Translations under genes and position numbers: made by a program
Assembly: GCF_025370785.1 (NCBI RefSeq)
Contig: NZ_JAMXFA010000017.1
Location: 1-64,000, forward strand
Length of the DNA stretch: 64,000 nucleotides
Origin: Laspinema olomoucense D3b
GTDB taxonomy: Bacteria; Cyanobacteriota; Cyanobacteriia; Cyanobacteriales; Laspinemataceae
Reading direction: 5' to 3'
Part shown: positions 7,113 to 12,951 of the stretch, piece by piece
Layout of the letters: every line of letters begins with the position of its first letter
Numbering within the stretch: position 1 is the stretch's first letter
Notes under the pieces: model-generated
What the model was told of the DNA's origin: nothing
Databases searched by the model: none
Seen by the model: only the letters and a program-made list of their open reading frames with translations

Positions 7113-9923
7113 TTAACTCGCTGGGGTATAATCGGCCATCGCTTCCCCTGAAGGGTTATAGGCGATGATGCGATCGCGACCGGCAGTCTTGGCTTGATAG
7201 AGTGCTTGATCCGCACAGCGATACAAGGTATCCACCGTTTTCCCATCTTCGGGATACTGAGCCACCCCGCCACTAAAGGTTAGGTATAGACGCTCCTCCC
7301 CGATTACAAAGGGTTCTGCATGGAGGATTTGGACGACCTCACTTAGGCGTTTGGTCCCGGACTCCTTGTTAATGCCATACATTCCCACCACAAATTCTTC
7401 CCCACCCCACCGCGCGACGATATCCTCACTCCGAAAGGTGTTCCGTAAGAGCTTGCCAAATTGCCGCAGCACTGCATCTCCCATTGCATGACCGTGGAGA
7501 TCGTTGACTTGCTTAAAGCGATCGAGGTCTAACATCGCCAGACACATCGGTTGTCCATGCAGTTGGCACAGGTGCAGGAACTTGTCAAATTCGGTGATAG
7601 ATTTGCGCCGGTTCGCCACGCCGGTGAGCGGATCAGTTTCGGCCATGTTTCGCAGTAAGTGAATGCGTTCAAGACGGTTGAGGAGGCGGGTAACCAGTTC
7701 CGGGCCGACGATGGGTTTACTAATATAATCATCGGCACCGGCAGCAAACACTTGATGGACAATATCCGGACCCGTGTGGGCGGTCAGAAATAAGACCGGC
7801 AGACTGTTCCATCGCGGATCGTTGCGCACAACCTGACACAGTTCAATCCCGTTGAGGTGGGGTAATTCGATATCCAGAATCAGCAGATCTGGGGATGAGA
7901 CTTCTAGGGTTTCCCAGAAGCGCTCGGAGTCAGAGAGGGTGATGGTTTTCATGCCCCAAGGTTGGAGGAAATGTTTAACCAGGGAGAGGATTTGGGGGTC
8001 ATCATCCACGACCATGATTTTAGCTTCCGTGGTCTGAACTCCCTGCAAAACCTGCACAACCGCTTCCATGATTTGAGCGGGTCTCACAGGTTTTTGTAAA
8101 AAAGCACGGCCTCCGAGTCGAGCGACTTCTAATCGGTCTTCTACCCGACTTTGGTCGGCAACGACCAGAACGGGGAGAGGGGGGAACCCATTGGCGAGTT
8201 CGGAGAGTAAGGTTAATCCCTCTTCTTTATTGTTGGGGTTGATGGTGAGGGTGTCTTGGGCGGATAAATCTAATAAGACGGCATCGGGACGGCGATCGGC
8301 GATCGCCGTTCGGGCGCTGGCGATCGAGTCACTGTTGACCACCTCCATTCCCCACCCTTTGACCTCCAATCCCATCTGTTGGGACAGTTCCTGGTCCCCC
8401 TCAATCATCAGGAGCAGGGGTAGATCGTTGAGGGGAGTTCCCCCCCGGCGCTCGCTCTGGATGGGCGCTTGGTCGATCTGCGATCGCAGGGCCTGAACTA
8501 AGACCGCTAGATGCGCAGATTGGCTGGAATTGAGGGTGGGATTGTGCAGCAACTGCTCCACTTCCCGCGCAATTACTGAACCTTGAGTCAACCCAAAGGT
8601 CCCTAAAGACCCCGCCAATTTGTGCGCTTCCTGTTTTGCCTTAGCGTGCAATTCCTGGGGAAGTTCGCCATCTTCCAGGGCCTGGGTTGCCTGCTCGATC
8701 GCCGTTACTCGGTCCGCAATCCGGTCTTTGAACCGTTCCCAGACTTGGCCAATGGCCGCCACAATAGTCGGATCCTGTTTCGGGGAGCCTTGGGGATCTG
8801 ATAAGTTCAGATGCAGGAGTTTAGCGACTTCACGAGCGAGTTTCTCCGCATCCAGGGGGTGATAGAGAAAGGAGGTAACCCGATCTAGGGTTTCCGACTG
8901 CTGTTGGGTGGTTGAGCTATTTCGGGTTTCGGGCAGTTTTCTCCCTTTGCCCAAGGGGGCGCGGGGGTAGCTGTCTACCCCTTTTACTCCACAGTAAATC
9001 ACCGGAATCGGGGGAGCAGATTGCCCTTTATTGCCGATATGTTTGAGCAGTTCTGCCGGTCCGGGATGGCGCAGGTGTTGATCTAAAATGACTAGGGACC
9101 ATTGGCGATCGCTCAGTTCCGTTCGCGTATCTTCTCCCGTATGAGTCACCCGGACCACCGCATCTCCCAGGCGCTGTTGCAACCAAAACCCCAACTCGTC
9201 CGAGAACCCCCCCATCAGGATGCGAGGCGTTTGTACTACTTTCTCCTCACTCTGGGGTTTGAGTCGATACCCCAACCCATAGACCGTTTCGATCGCATCT
9301 GCCGGAGCCCCACTGCATTTGAGCTTTTGCCGCAACCCTTTGATATGGGCGCGAATCGTATCTTCCGAGGGGGGTTCATCAAAGGACCATAAATGATCCA
9401 GAATCGCACTGCGACTATAAACCCGGGTGCTATTTCGCATGAACAGTTCCAACAGGCGATATTCCGTCGGGGTCAAAGTTACAGGTTGGTTGTTATAGGT
9501 AACGTCACAGTTACTCGGATTAAGTTGTAAAGCTCCCCACTCTAACACGGGGGGTAATGGAGCTGTTCCCCTGCGTAATAAGGCCCGAATTCGGGCTGTA
9601 AGTTCCGGTAAGTCAAAGGGTTTGACGAGATAATCATCGGCCCCGGCATCGAGTCCTTTAACTTTATCTTCTGTGCTGTCTTTTGCCGTAAGCAATAGGA
9701 TGGGCATTTGATAGCTTAAGGTGCGTAACTTCCGGCATAAACTAATTCCATCTAATTTCGGCAGCATGACATCCAGCAACAGCAGGTCATAGTCAAAGGC
9801 TTCCGCTAATTCTAAGCCCAATAGCCCATCAGTGGCTACATCTACTACATGGTTTTGGTGTTTCAATGTAGTGACAAGTGCTTGGGCGATCGCTTCGTCA
9901 TCCTCCACCAGTAAAATTCTCAT
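7113..9923 (-). CDS. Multidomain response regulator: REC-OmpR wHTH-REC-like-HPt-REC-like-REC-GGDEF
   Basis: A 936-residue signalling protein. Domains in order: receiver (1-118, phospho-acceptor Asp51); OmpR/PhoB winged helix (about 128-222, ending VYGLGYRLKP); degenerate receiver-like region (about 235-370, Asp281); HPt domain (about 390-490, His434 in HKLAGSLGTFG); receiver-like domain (about 500-628, Asp552); true receiver (about 635-750, Asp684); and a GGDEF diguanylate cyclase (about 760-925) with an active GGEEF at 840-844 and an RSED product-inhibition site at 831-834. It should receive phosphate at several points, bind DNA, and make cyclic di-GMP. The DNA-binding plus cyclase fusion is unusual. 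It is monocistronic, with an ATG start on the minus strand. Confidence 0.93.
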   Translation of the reverse strand: MRILLVEDDEAIAQALVTTLKHQNHVVDVATDGLLGLELAEAFDYDLLLLDVMLPKLDGISLCRKLRTLSYQMPILLLTAKDSTEDKVKGLDAGADDYLVKPFDLPELTARIRALLRRGTAPLPPVLEWGALQLNPSNCDVTYNNQPVTLTPTEYRLLELFMRNSTRVYSRSAILDHLWSFDEPPSEDTIRAHIKGLRQKLKCSGAPADAIETVYGLGYRLKPQSEEKVVQTPRILMGGFSDELGFWLQQRLGDAVVRVTHTGEDTRTELSDRQWSLVILDQHLRHPGPAELLKHIGNKGQSAPPIPVIYCGVKGVDSYPRAPLGKGRKLPETRNSSTTQQQSETLDRVTSFLYHPLDAEKLAREVAKLLHLNLSDPQGSPKQDPTIVAAIGQVWERFKDRIADRVTAIEQATQALEDGELPQELHAKAKQEAHKLAGSLGTFGLTQGSVIAREVEQLLHNPTLNSSQSAHLAVLVQALRSQIDQAPIQSERRGGTPLNDLPLLLMIEGDQELSQQMGLEVKGWGMEVVNSDSIASARTAIADRRPDAVLLDLSAQDTLTINPNNKEEGLTLLSELANGFPPLPVLVVADQSRVEDRLEVARLGGRAFLQKPVRPAQIMEAVVQVLQGVQTTEAKIMVVDDDPQILSLVKHFLQPWGMKTITLSDSERFWETLEVSSPDLLILDIELPHLNGIELCQVVRNDPRWNSLPVLFLTAHTGPDIVHQVFAAGADDYISKPIVGPELVTRLLNRLERIHLLRNMAETDPLTGVANRRKSITEFDKFLHLCQLHGQPMCLAMLDLDRFKQVNDLHGHAMGDAVLRQFGKLLRNTFRSEDIVARWGGEEFVVGMYGINKESGTKRLSEVVQILHAEPFVIGEERLYLTFSGGVAQYPEDGKTVDTLYRCADQALYQAKTAGRDRIIAYNPSGEAMADYTPAS

Positions 9924-10796
9924 AGCAGTTTATTGTAAGGGTATGAATTGGACTCCTGATGAGTCAGCCGCATAAAAAAGCATCTATTGTTAATCCGGGG
10001 GTTGCTTCCGGCAATTTTAAGTAAAAATTAGTAGTCAATCACCCCCCCTCCCAAAGAGGTCTCAGAATAAAAATCTCCACTGGAGGAGCTTGGCTGAAAG
10101 GGGATCGCACCGTTAAGTTGAGGGCTTACGATTGTCCCGGACGGTTCAAGCCTGGGGCTATTCTCAAGATATACCTGAGACTCTCTAATCCATTCCTGTC
10201 ACTCCTCCAGAAAGATAGCCTCTGCTTCCATTGTAAGCTAAAGTCGCCTCATTTCGAGAAATTACGGGGATAAAATCTATCCCAAGTATCAGAAGAATTT
10301 TGAGTGTCAAGGAAATGAAACAGCAACTTTTAAGGGGAATTACGGAGAGATTTGGAGGAAGCAGTTTAAGGCAATTCACCCTCAGCAATCCTTTCTCCTA
10401 GGGGTTTTCCTTTTATCATTAGGTGATTGCCCCCTCTCTTTCCGGGACTGAGTTCACCCCTTCCCGTGAAATTACTAAGTATTCAACAGCACTGTTCATA
10501 ATTATTAACACTTATCCTGGTCTTTCAAGGGTTGACTTTTAATTCACAATATAGATTTGCCTACATTAAGGGCGTTTATAGCACCTCTTGCAGCAGTTTG
10601 GCCTAAAAAGGGGAGGTAGATGCAAAGCCTGGGGCAGGGCTTGGCTCGACGGTACTCCAAAGCTCTCCTGGCGGGACCGATTGTCCAATCCATTTAGGGT
10701 CGCTATAGACTGGATGGGTAAACCCCGCCGAGGTGACCCGGGCAGACATTGTTCCCTTAATTTAAAGGCTCTGTCTCATATTTTATTGTTAAACAA

Positions 10797-10877
10797 TAGA
10801 CCTCTTGCCAAATTCTTTAAAGCCCCCCTTATTAAGGGGGGGAAAGGGGGATCAATCCTTTTTTTGCAAGAGGTCTA
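10797..10877. repeat. 81-bp MITE-like element with 12-bp terminal inverted repeats
   Basis: Perfect 12-bp termini TAGACCTCTTGC (10797-10808) and GCAAGAGGTCTA (10866-10877) enclose a C-run/G-run hairpin near 10831-10844 and an ATCAATCC segment. The right half recurs at 15341-15398 and, inverted, from 46446. There is no coding capacity, so it would be a non-autonomous or REP-like element. Target duplication is not clear. Confidence 0.75.
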
Positions 10878-11287
10878 ATACTGGGGTTAAGGTTAAAATT
10901 TTTAATAAAATTCACTGCTTAACTGAATGGGAAAGCAGCCCCGAGCGATCGCCCTATTCACCAGAGTTGAGCTGCTATGGGATCAGAGTGCGGTGACGGT
11001 ACTCAGACAGGTCCGGGCATCTTTCTGAGCCTTCTGGTCAAGTTGATGGGGCTACATTCGAGCAATCTCACCTTTAGCCCACTCTGGATCCACAAAATCC
11101 CCGGCAGCCGGAGGCGGTCCTTACAAGAGTAAGTTTTTTACGCTTCACTGCACCTGCGGTCCCCGGACCAAGACATCGGGAAAGGTGAGGGTGGGGTGTC
11201 GGCGGTGAGGGGGCGATCGCCAATCTGCCCAGGGATAGTAGACATTTTAGGTCCCGACTGGATTCCCCGGACCGAACGGAAAAGCGC

Positions 11288-11293
11288 TATAAT
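11288..11293 (+). promoter_or_regulatory. Possible -10 box (TATAAT)
   Basis: A perfect TATAAT lies 66 bp upstream of the ATG of the epsilon-like gene. No convincing -35 hexamer is seen 16-18 bp upstream, so this is only a candidate promoter. Confidence 0.35.
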
Positions 11294-11358
11294 ATCGCCG
11301 TTGACACCCGAGAACGTTGAAATCATTTGCTTATAAATATAATAACCCTCCCAGTCCT

Positions 11359-11841
11359 ATGATTTTGAACGTTTATGTCATCACTCCCTCAAAAACCGTC
11401 TGGAATGCTCCGAGTCCCGAGGTGATTTTGCCCACAAGTACGGGTCAAGTCGGGATTTTGCCCGGTCATGTGGCGATGGTTACTTTTATTAAAGTCGGGG
11501 TCATGAGAATCCGCTATCAAAAAACTTGGATTCCGGTTTTTGTCCAGGCAGGATTTGCAGAAATTGAAGGGGATATTGTGACAGTTTTAGTGAATGATGC
11601 CGAACGGGGCGATCGCATTGGTTTAGAAAGTGCTCACTCTGAGCTAGAAAAAGCAGAGGAACAGTTGAATCAGGCTCAAAATTCCCTAGAAAAAATCCGC
11701 GCCCAACTTTTTCTAAAACAAGCTCGTGCCCGGGATGCTGCCGCCCGAGACTTTCCTTATTCATTGCAACTGGATATCCCGGATCCGATAGCTTTAAAAA
11801 AGGCACCCGTTTCTGCTTTGACAATGATTGAACATTTATAA
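11359..11841 (+). CDS. Orphan F-type ATP synthase epsilon subunit-like protein
   Basis: A 160-residue protein whose first 85 residues match the beta-sandwich of the F1 epsilon subunit (VYVITPSKTVWNA; EVILPTSTGQVGILPGH), followed by the two-helix region (residues about 90-140, Glu/Gln/Ala rich). In F1 this subunit links gamma to the c-ring and limits wasteful ATP hydrolysis. It is longer than usual for the family (about 135 residues) because of a C-terminal tail with the ending SALTMIEHL. No beta-subunit gene is adjacent, whereas cyanobacterial epsilon genes normally follow atpB, so this is probably a second, divergent copy. I placed the start at ATG 11359; an earlier TTG at 11317 is less likely. 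Confidence 0.8.
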   Translation: MILNVYVITPSKTVWNAPSPEVILPTSTGQVGILPGHVAMVTFIKVGVMRIRYQKTWIPVFVQAGFAEIEGDIVTVLVNDAERGDRIGLESAHSELEKAEEQLNQAQNSLEKIRAQLFLKQARARDAAARDFPYSLQLDIPDPIALKKAPVSALTMIEHL

Positions 11842-11872: not shown

Positions 11873-11903
11873 TAAAAAGCCCACACCCTCAAGGGTGCGG
11901 GCT
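11873..11903 (-). terminator. Hairpin terminator after the EamA gene
   Basis: A 12-bp stem with one mismatch (AGCCCACACCCT at 11878-11889 against AGGGTGCGGGCT at 11892-11903), followed on the minus strand by a run of T (11877-11874). It ends transcription from the EamA gene whose stop is at 11941. The stem also resembles the dispersed ACCCGCACCC hairpin repeat, so a repeat has probably been adopted as a terminator. Confidence 0.65.
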
Positions 11904-11940: not shown

Positions 11941-12951
11941 TCATCCAGATTTTTGCGAGAATTGGCCCGGTTTTCTAGGAGAATGAGGGCGTTTTCCCAA
12001 GGCGATCGCCACTGAACCACTGACCACTAGCATTGCTCCAATTACGGCTAAAACCGTTAACTCTTCCGGCGTAATCGGCAGGGGAATTCCCCGGGAAATC
12101 ACCCAGACTGCTATTAATGTAACAATGGGAGTGGTTGCCATAACTGCGCTGAGTTTAGAGGCATCCCAATGGGCCAAAGATTCCGCAAAAGCTCCGTAAG
12201 CCACTACGGTATTTACCCCACAGAAAATTAACATTCCCCACTCTAATGGAGTCAGGGTTAACAGGTTGATGGGGCTAGAAAAAGGCAGAAATAAGAGGGC
12301 GCAAATTCCATATAACAACAGCATGATCTCAGAGGAGGATAACTGTTGTAAGAGTTGTTTTTGGGCTAGGGCATAAACTGCCCAAGCTGCGGCGGCTATC
12401 ACCAGAATGATATTGCCGATTAAATAAGTTCTGGGTGCAGCTAGGACGGTTTGTAATTGTTCATGAAAGAACACTGCAAAGCCGAGGGTTAAGATGCCTA
12501 ATCCGGCCCATTGGCGCAGGGTATAGCGTTCCTTGAAAATGGCGATCGCCCCTAATCCCATTAACACGGGTGCTAACTGAATAAAGACTTGAGCATTGGC
12601 GGGAGAAGTTTGGGCTAATCCTTGTAAGTAGAGGGCATAATTAGCCGATAAAAAGCCCGTGGCGATCGCCAGTAATTTCCAGGAAGTTCCTCGCAATTTT
12701 TCCAGGGAGGGAAGTTGCTGACGCAGCCCTAAAATACCAAATAATATCCCAAATGACAAGGAAAACCGAAACCAAGTCACGGTGTAAATATCAAGGGCCT
12801 GAACGGTTATTTTAAGGGCGATCGGTAGCACTCCCCATAAAATGACCGTCACCAGGGACAGACCCAACCCCAACTGCCAACGCCCGGAACTTTCATGGAG
12901 TTTCATAGGGGATTGAGTCGGCAGGGGAGTGGGTTGATTTTCTAAACTCAT
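11941..12951 (-). CDS. EamA/DMT family transporter
   Basis: A 336-residue inner-membrane protein with about ten hydrophobic segments arranged as two EamA repeats (residues about 28-155 and 175-318), the layout of the drug/metabolite transporter superfamily. The first repeat contains GVLPIALKI and the second a TPIVTLI motif in an equivalent helix. Members export amino acids, nucleotides or drugs; the substrate cannot be read from sequence. The N-terminus (about 25 residues, Pro/Ser rich) is polar and cytoplasmic. It starts at ATG on the minus strand and ends before a hairpin with a T-run. It stands apart from ligA, from which a repeat-containing spacer of 182 bp separates it. Confidence 0.88.
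   Translation of the reverse strand: MSLENQPTPLPTQSPMKLHESSGRWQLGLGLSLVTVILWGVLPIALKITVQALDIYTVTWFRFSLSFGILFGILGLRQQLPSLEKLRGTSWKLLAIATGFLSANYALYLQGLAQTSPANAQVFIQLAPVLMGLGAIAIFKERYTLRQWAGLGILTLGFAVFFHEQLQTVLAAPRTYLIGNIILVIAAAAWAVYALAQKQLLQQLSSSEIMLLLYGICALLFLPFSSPINLLTLTPLEWGMLIFCGVNTVVAYGAFAESLAHWDASKLSAVMATTPIVTLIAVWVISRGIPLPITPEELTVLAVIGAMLVVSGSVAIALGKRPHSPRKPGQFSQKSG

Follow-up and report, generated by a model that had tools for sequence, protein, structure and literature searches.

We found that the filamentous cyanobacterium Laspinema olomoucense D3b possesses one F-type ATP synthase and two epsilon genes. The second of these stands alone and encodes a real, conserved variant of a known subunit, one that carries a C-terminal tail and is probably old. 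The gene lies in a 64,000-nucleotide stretch of DNA (hereafter the window) from a genome of 7.02 Mb that is 99.99% complete, and the features that matter here are as follows, in window coordinates.

11359–11841, + strand: solitary second F-type epsilon gene (open reading frame with Pfam and TIGR01216 matches; orthologues in all eight Laspinema genomes examined)
11365–11601, + strand: N-terminal beta-sandwich domain, residues 3–81 (PF02823)
11617–11745, + strand: two C-terminal helices, about residues 87–129 (PF00401; low-confidence model)
11746–11838, + strand: C-terminal tail, residues 130–160 (alignments; absent from the ordinary epsilons aligned)
11279–11358, + strand: conserved leader of 80 bp, candidate promoter and 5' UTR (alignment of 8 genomes)
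7113–9923, − strand: divergent neighbour, a response regulator with three receiver domains, a Trans_reg_C DNA-binding domain, Hpt and GGDEF
11941–12951, − strand: EamA transporter gene, the other neighbour

The open reading frame begins with an ATG and encodes an F-type ATP synthase epsilon of 160 residues. Both domains place the protein among the F-type epsilons by sequence, as each scored above its curated cut-off: PF02823 was matched along the entire profile (1–80 of 80; E 3.3e-22, 78.7 bits against a cut-off of 27), the epsilon equivalog model TIGR01216 matched residues 3–125 (111.1 bits against 67.25), and PF00401 was marginal, barely above its threshold (24.7 bits against 24.6). The closest solved chain by sequence was 2rq7, an ATP synthase epsilon (E 8e-36, residues 1–129). 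An AlphaFold2 model placed helices at residues 89–105 and 109–131, the model being a poor one (4 sequences, mean pLDDT 44). An initial annotation made from the DNA letters had called this an orphan epsilon-like gene, and that is what we observed: it lies alone between the response regulator/GGDEF and EamA genes, away from beta, and a separate gene in the genome occupies the place behind beta. Such placement is usual for epsilon genes and is no defining property of the protein. The annotation was also right that the protein is about 25 residues longer than the ordinary copy (160 versus 135 residues, the latter counted from its ATG) and that it ends in a tail absent from ordinary epsilon, which alignment resolved as about 31 extra residues past the usual end. 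The two epsilons of this genome are 49% identical and can be aligned over residues 1–129.

We looked for the standard beta–epsilon pair elsewhere in the genome, as the annotation had advised, and located it on contig C30. PF02823 matched in two places, the solitary gene and an ordinary 135-residue epsilon (C30:12532) whose ATG lies 104 bases behind beta, and PF00006 matched in two places only, at C18:109633 (alpha) and C30:11396 (beta). The alpha gene ends 114 bases before gamma, which gave the single gamma match in the genome, and profile searches of this 99.99%-complete assembly returned no third epsilon, no second alpha/beta set and no second gamma. Because the ordinary epsilon sits behind beta, the solitary gene is not a relocated housekeeping copy; the annotation had allowed that, if it were the only epsilon in the genome, it would simply be the housekeeping subunit moved away from beta, and this explanation was rejected. 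With alpha, beta and gamma each single, the housekeeping F1 is therefore the one F1 with which the solitary protein could pair in this cell.

The same gene complement contradicts the annotation's other suggestion, that the gene is part of a second, Na+-type enzyme (N-ATPase), which we now hold to be extremely improbable. What speaks for such an origin is that N-type epsilons exist elsewhere in the order (e.g. G009, G024, G031 and G037). The solitary protein, however, scored 20.7 bits with the N-ATPase epsilon model TIGR03166 against a cut-off of 100.1, no N-type epsilon or N-ATPase subunit was found in this genome, and only an unassembled operon could rescue the idea in so complete an assembly. 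As a yardstick, six of eight N-type epsilon loci in other genomes had a beta-like gene (flagged by P-loop text) directly before epsilon, while L050, L051 and a ninth locus, L111, had none within the stretch seen. Two N-type epsilons occur in G009 besides its ordinary and tailed ones, in two separate N-ATPase-looking operons (L042 and L043), each with a beta-like gene directly before epsilon. At L111 (G538, 106–1887), the N-type epsilon does not follow beta; it comes immediately after what we take, from reading the sequence, to be a NiFe-hydrogenase-large-subunit-like gene and precedes a Kef-like antiporter gene, also named by reading.

An alternative in-frame TTG at 11317 is open and would lengthen the protein by 14 residues to 174. 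This start was rejected: a one-base gap at this place in the relative L040 breaks the TTG frame, and the ATG at 11359 is therefore the likely start. The 80 bases upstream of the ATG are strongly conserved in 8/8 Laspinema genomes, with conservation dropping further upstream, and a TATAAT at 11288–11293 is identical in all eight. Since a consensus scan gave no promoter-like pair on the + strand, we regard the leader as a candidate promoter only. Upstream of it, the approximately 1.4 kb that separate it from the response regulator/GGDEF gene (9924–11278) hold short frames only. Regulator and epsilon gene lie 1243–1435 bases apart in six of the Laspinema genomes; the distance is 951 bases in G009, where a response regulator/GGDEF gene of 59% identity is also divergent from the epsilon paralogue; the association of this regulator with the epsilon gene is one of position only. 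Between the epsilon and EamA genes, the − strand has a hairpin of 11 pairs that resembles a terminator (11878–11903).

The solitary epsilon gene was present and intact in all eight Laspinema genomes examined. In a comparison of neighbours made without nine reading frames that run off a locus edge, six of the seven relatives shared window neighbours on both sides and L034, whose contig begins 1.3 kb before the epsilon gene, shared them on the downstream side only. Median pairwise dN/dS was 0.272 for the whole gene (28 pairs, non-independent) and 0.226 for residues 1–129, compared with 0.138 for the ordinary epsilon, and the solitary epsilon is under purifying selection. Of six further genomes in the same family, one has the gene (G009, 49% identity, full length including the tail). 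A non-functional or recent duplicate might be expected to show sequence constraint below that of the ordinary copy, as seen here; its intact state in 8/8 genomes at a dN/dS of 0.27, the conservation of its tail across genera, and the lack of any grouping with its own genome's ordinary epsilon leave that reading next to no credence.

The full-length profile matched a second time in 17 of 388 genomes of the order, counts that are a lower bound as at most nine candidates were scored per genome. Eight of the 17 are Laspinema, and seven have second F-type copies away from beta, which puts the carriers at no fewer than 7 among the 380 genomes sampled from the order outside Laspinema (G009, G018, G030, G410, G473, G538 and G567; the G410 and G567 genomes are incomplete, at 75% and 67%). 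Left uncounted were the second match of G488, which looks like a piece of a split ordinary epsilon, and that of G535, truncated where its contig ends. The contig-edge piece in G535 (L109) lies near an atpF-like gene in a 63%-complete genome and is possibly plastid or foreign DNA. In a sample of 386 genomes from across the phylum (E 1e-6), a second F-type copy was detected in the window's own genome only; the two matches of G240 come from a single ordinary epsilon interrupted by a frame break and were likewise left uncounted. Neither the 8 genomes in the family of G473 nor the 27 in that of G538 included a further carrier; the family of G410 consists of one genome. Carriage as plasmid or phage cargo was rejected: tblastn of the solitary protein gave 3 plasmid and 8 phage records, all below 60% identity and none covering 80% of the query, and none of these records is labelled cyanobacterial.

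For phylogenetic analysis, we truncated the tailed rows at residue 130, L079 at 132 and L105 at 131, and starts were trimmed for the 174-residue frames, L007, L010, L013 and L108, so that neither tails nor false starts could group rows. A second tree was built from the 64 rows of the first by dropping eleven (near duplicates, two picocyanobacterial-looking rows and L007) and then adding six. The 46 beta-linked ordinary epsilons formed one side of the tree (96/90, with the tail left out), seven tailed rows grouped in a clade of their own (99/92), and the remaining five solitary copies, which have no such tail, belonged to neither. The grouping of all solitary copies in a single clade was not rejected (p-AU 0.393). 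In seven lineages no solitary copy grouped with its own genome's ordinary epsilon (the ordinary copy of G538 is absent from the tree), and a recent local duplicate is unsupported by the trees. This suggests that the solitary epsilons represent an old paralogue that has been kept patchily, the depth of the split being uncertain because the solitary copies outside Laspinema have long branches.

In alignments the tail shows AA-x-[DE]-FP followed by [IL]P, S, [MV], and L towards its end. It is carried by the eight Laspinema genomes, G009 and G473, and thus by three genera; among solitary copies outside Laspinema it is common to G009 and G473 only, and G567 has a different, shorter tail. Within Laspinema the median dN/dS of the tail was 0.349 (28 non-independent pairs), with one pair of this short stretch reaching up to 2.9. 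A search with the tail alone in the phylum sample (386 genomes) gave a full match in the window's own genome only, along with five weak partial matches that all overlap ordinary epsilon genes.

Across the eight lineages that have a solitary epsilon (Laspinema counted once), the adjoining gene belongs to glycolysis or glycogen breakdown in four. Laspinema, G018, G030 and G567 have no such neighbour within the stretch seen. The neighbours outside Laspinema are listed here.

G009: gpmA, tail to tail with the epsilon gene, 36 bases away
G473: pgk, same strand, 317 bases away; glucokinase three genes before pgk
G410: pfkA, divergent, 183 bases away; typA on the other side
G538: glgP, same strand, 100 bases away
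G018: an SDR gene and what we take, from reading the sequence, to be a serpin-like gene
G030: presumably msrA-like and ABC-type genes, named by reading the sequence
G567: a GNAT gene, on a 3.9-kb contig

This pattern was noticed post hoc, among eight lineages and with one gene category picked by eye. The chance of finding such a neighbour in at least four of eight lineages came to between 3e-6 and 4e-4 before correction for the post hoc category, on gene counts that were assumed rather than measured (40–100 carbohydrate genes among 4000–5500 genes). The phylum and family searches supplied no independent solitary copies for testing the pattern.

To compare the tailed proteins with ordinary epsilon, we defined as constant the 66 positions at which at least 90% of 48 ordinary epsilons agree (rows L007, L064 and L065 omitted). 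All ten tailed proteins are identical to ordinary epsilon at 29 of these 66 positions, including G29, G32, I33, L34 and H37; the loop around 29–37 is the one that faces the c-ring in E. coli. The remaining 37 are altered in one or more tailed proteins, and these include the run 38–45 (HAPLLTALD to HVAMVTFIK), a change that could weaken binding to gamma or c. D11, Q110 and Q127 are changed in 10/10, and the final helix retains its basic residues in most of the proteins (K120 in 9/10, R123 in 7/10 and R125 in 9/10).

Taking the evidence together, we consider the chances about evenly balanced that the solitary gene encodes an old epsilon-2 isoform of the single FoF1, employed conditionally and altering the latency of ATP hydrolysis; a conditional regulator of F1 is a plausible role for it. 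Epsilon-2 would be expressed under conditions other than those of ordinary epsilon, most likely during dark life on stored carbon, and would occupy the same site on gamma and the c-ring, displacing ordinary epsilon from some of the enzymes. A different latency level for ATP hydrolysis would result, and the tail would supply a contact missing from ordinary epsilon. The very patchy distribution counts against the isoform reading, and the lack of a glycolytic neighbour in Laspinema counts against the link to carbon storage. A fuller version of the isoform reading is a tentative possibility: an ancient epsilon-2 lineage in the order, mostly lost and often found beside glycogen or glycolysis genes, would take the place of ordinary epsilon in the single FoF1 at night and so provide two regulatory settings, with the tail in Laspinema and two other genera acting as a further control element.

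As to the direction of the effect, section 4.2 of a review describes the N-terminal domain of cyanobacterial epsilon as itself inhibiting hydrolysis and the C-terminal domain as not regulatory (PMC11124002). Because that inhibitory domain alone suffices there (PMC11124002) and is kept in the solitary protein, stronger braking of hydrolysis seems more likely than release; and since the C-terminal domain is given no regulatory part in that section (PMC11124002), the tail need not affect hydrolysis, which argues against its taking part in inhibition. A brake could also work in trans, with the protein binding free F1, gamma or an assembly intermediate as a soluble brake or reserve and never as a stable subunit, and with the tail targeting it or keeping it off Fo. 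The retained N-terminal domain, the inhibitory action ascribed to it in the review (PMC11124002), and the altered run 38–45, which would fit changed docking, favour this somewhat unlikely reading, whereas the unchanged G29, G32–L34 and H37 lean towards normal docking; sequence alone does not tell the two modes apart. The review's point on cyanobacterial epsilon domains reportedly goes back to a primary paper, Inabe 2019.

The opposite outcome, an isoform that relieves inhibition so that FoF1 runs in reverse and the proton gradient is kept during dark fermentation in mats, would have the same anatomy and the same glycolytic neighbours. The loss of Q110 and Q127 in all ten tailed proteins would suit it, as would an analogy with Arabidopsis gamma-2 (ATPC2), which one paper describes as a redox-insensitive rotor paralogue whose enzymes retain dark ATP hydrolysis (PMC5522872). 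The largely retained basic residues of the last helix point the other way, and we think release unlikely. Similarly unlikely is a moonlighting role, in which an old epsilon paralogue would have lost its contact with ATP synthase and would serve another protein. Patchy distribution, the extra tail, long branches, a dN/dS of 0.27 versus 0.14 for ordinary epsilon and change in at least one row at 37 of 66 constant positions could all be read in this way, but three genera have kept the epsilon arrangement of two domains together with 29 of the constant positions. The epsilon-2 isoform of the single FoF1 is the reading that we prefer.

Two isoforms for one motor in the same cell offer a natural, direct test of epsilon's part in regulation. 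The nine ATP synthase genes are described as typically single-copy in the review (PMC11124002), and a tailed second epsilon departs from this norm. Among the literature matches listed, covering titles and the starts of abstracts, we saw no description of an additional epsilon in cyanobacteria, whether second, duplicated or orphan, and none of such a gene under N-ATPase and atpC in cyanobacteria; a search for Laspinema with ATP synthase found no literature.

With regard to known systems, the solitary protein resembles the ordinary F1 epsilon of cyanobacteria and chloroplasts (TIGR01216; 2rq7, 2rq6/5zwl) in its beta-sandwich and two helices. It differs from ordinary epsilon in that its gene is unlinked to beta, in its conserved tail and 25 additional residues, in lying off the canonical side of the tree, and in evolving faster. 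With N-ATPase epsilon (TIGR03166) it shares the superfamily PF02823, but it falls far under the cut-off of that model and its genome is one in which N-ATPase subunits were not found. The likeness to AtpTheta lies in the proposed role, conditional dark control of ATP hydrolysis, and to our knowledge AtpTheta is not an epsilon homologue. The AtpTheta paper presents it (gene atpT) as a dark-induced regulator of cyanobacterial FoF1 and, unlike a second epsilon, as a small protein in its own right (its coding region given as 144; PMC9241938). Arabidopsis ATPC1/ATPC2 likewise shows one organism holding two versions of a rotor subunit that differ in their regulation, although that subunit is gamma rather than epsilon and the plant keeps its two copies apart chiefly by tissue (PMC5522872).
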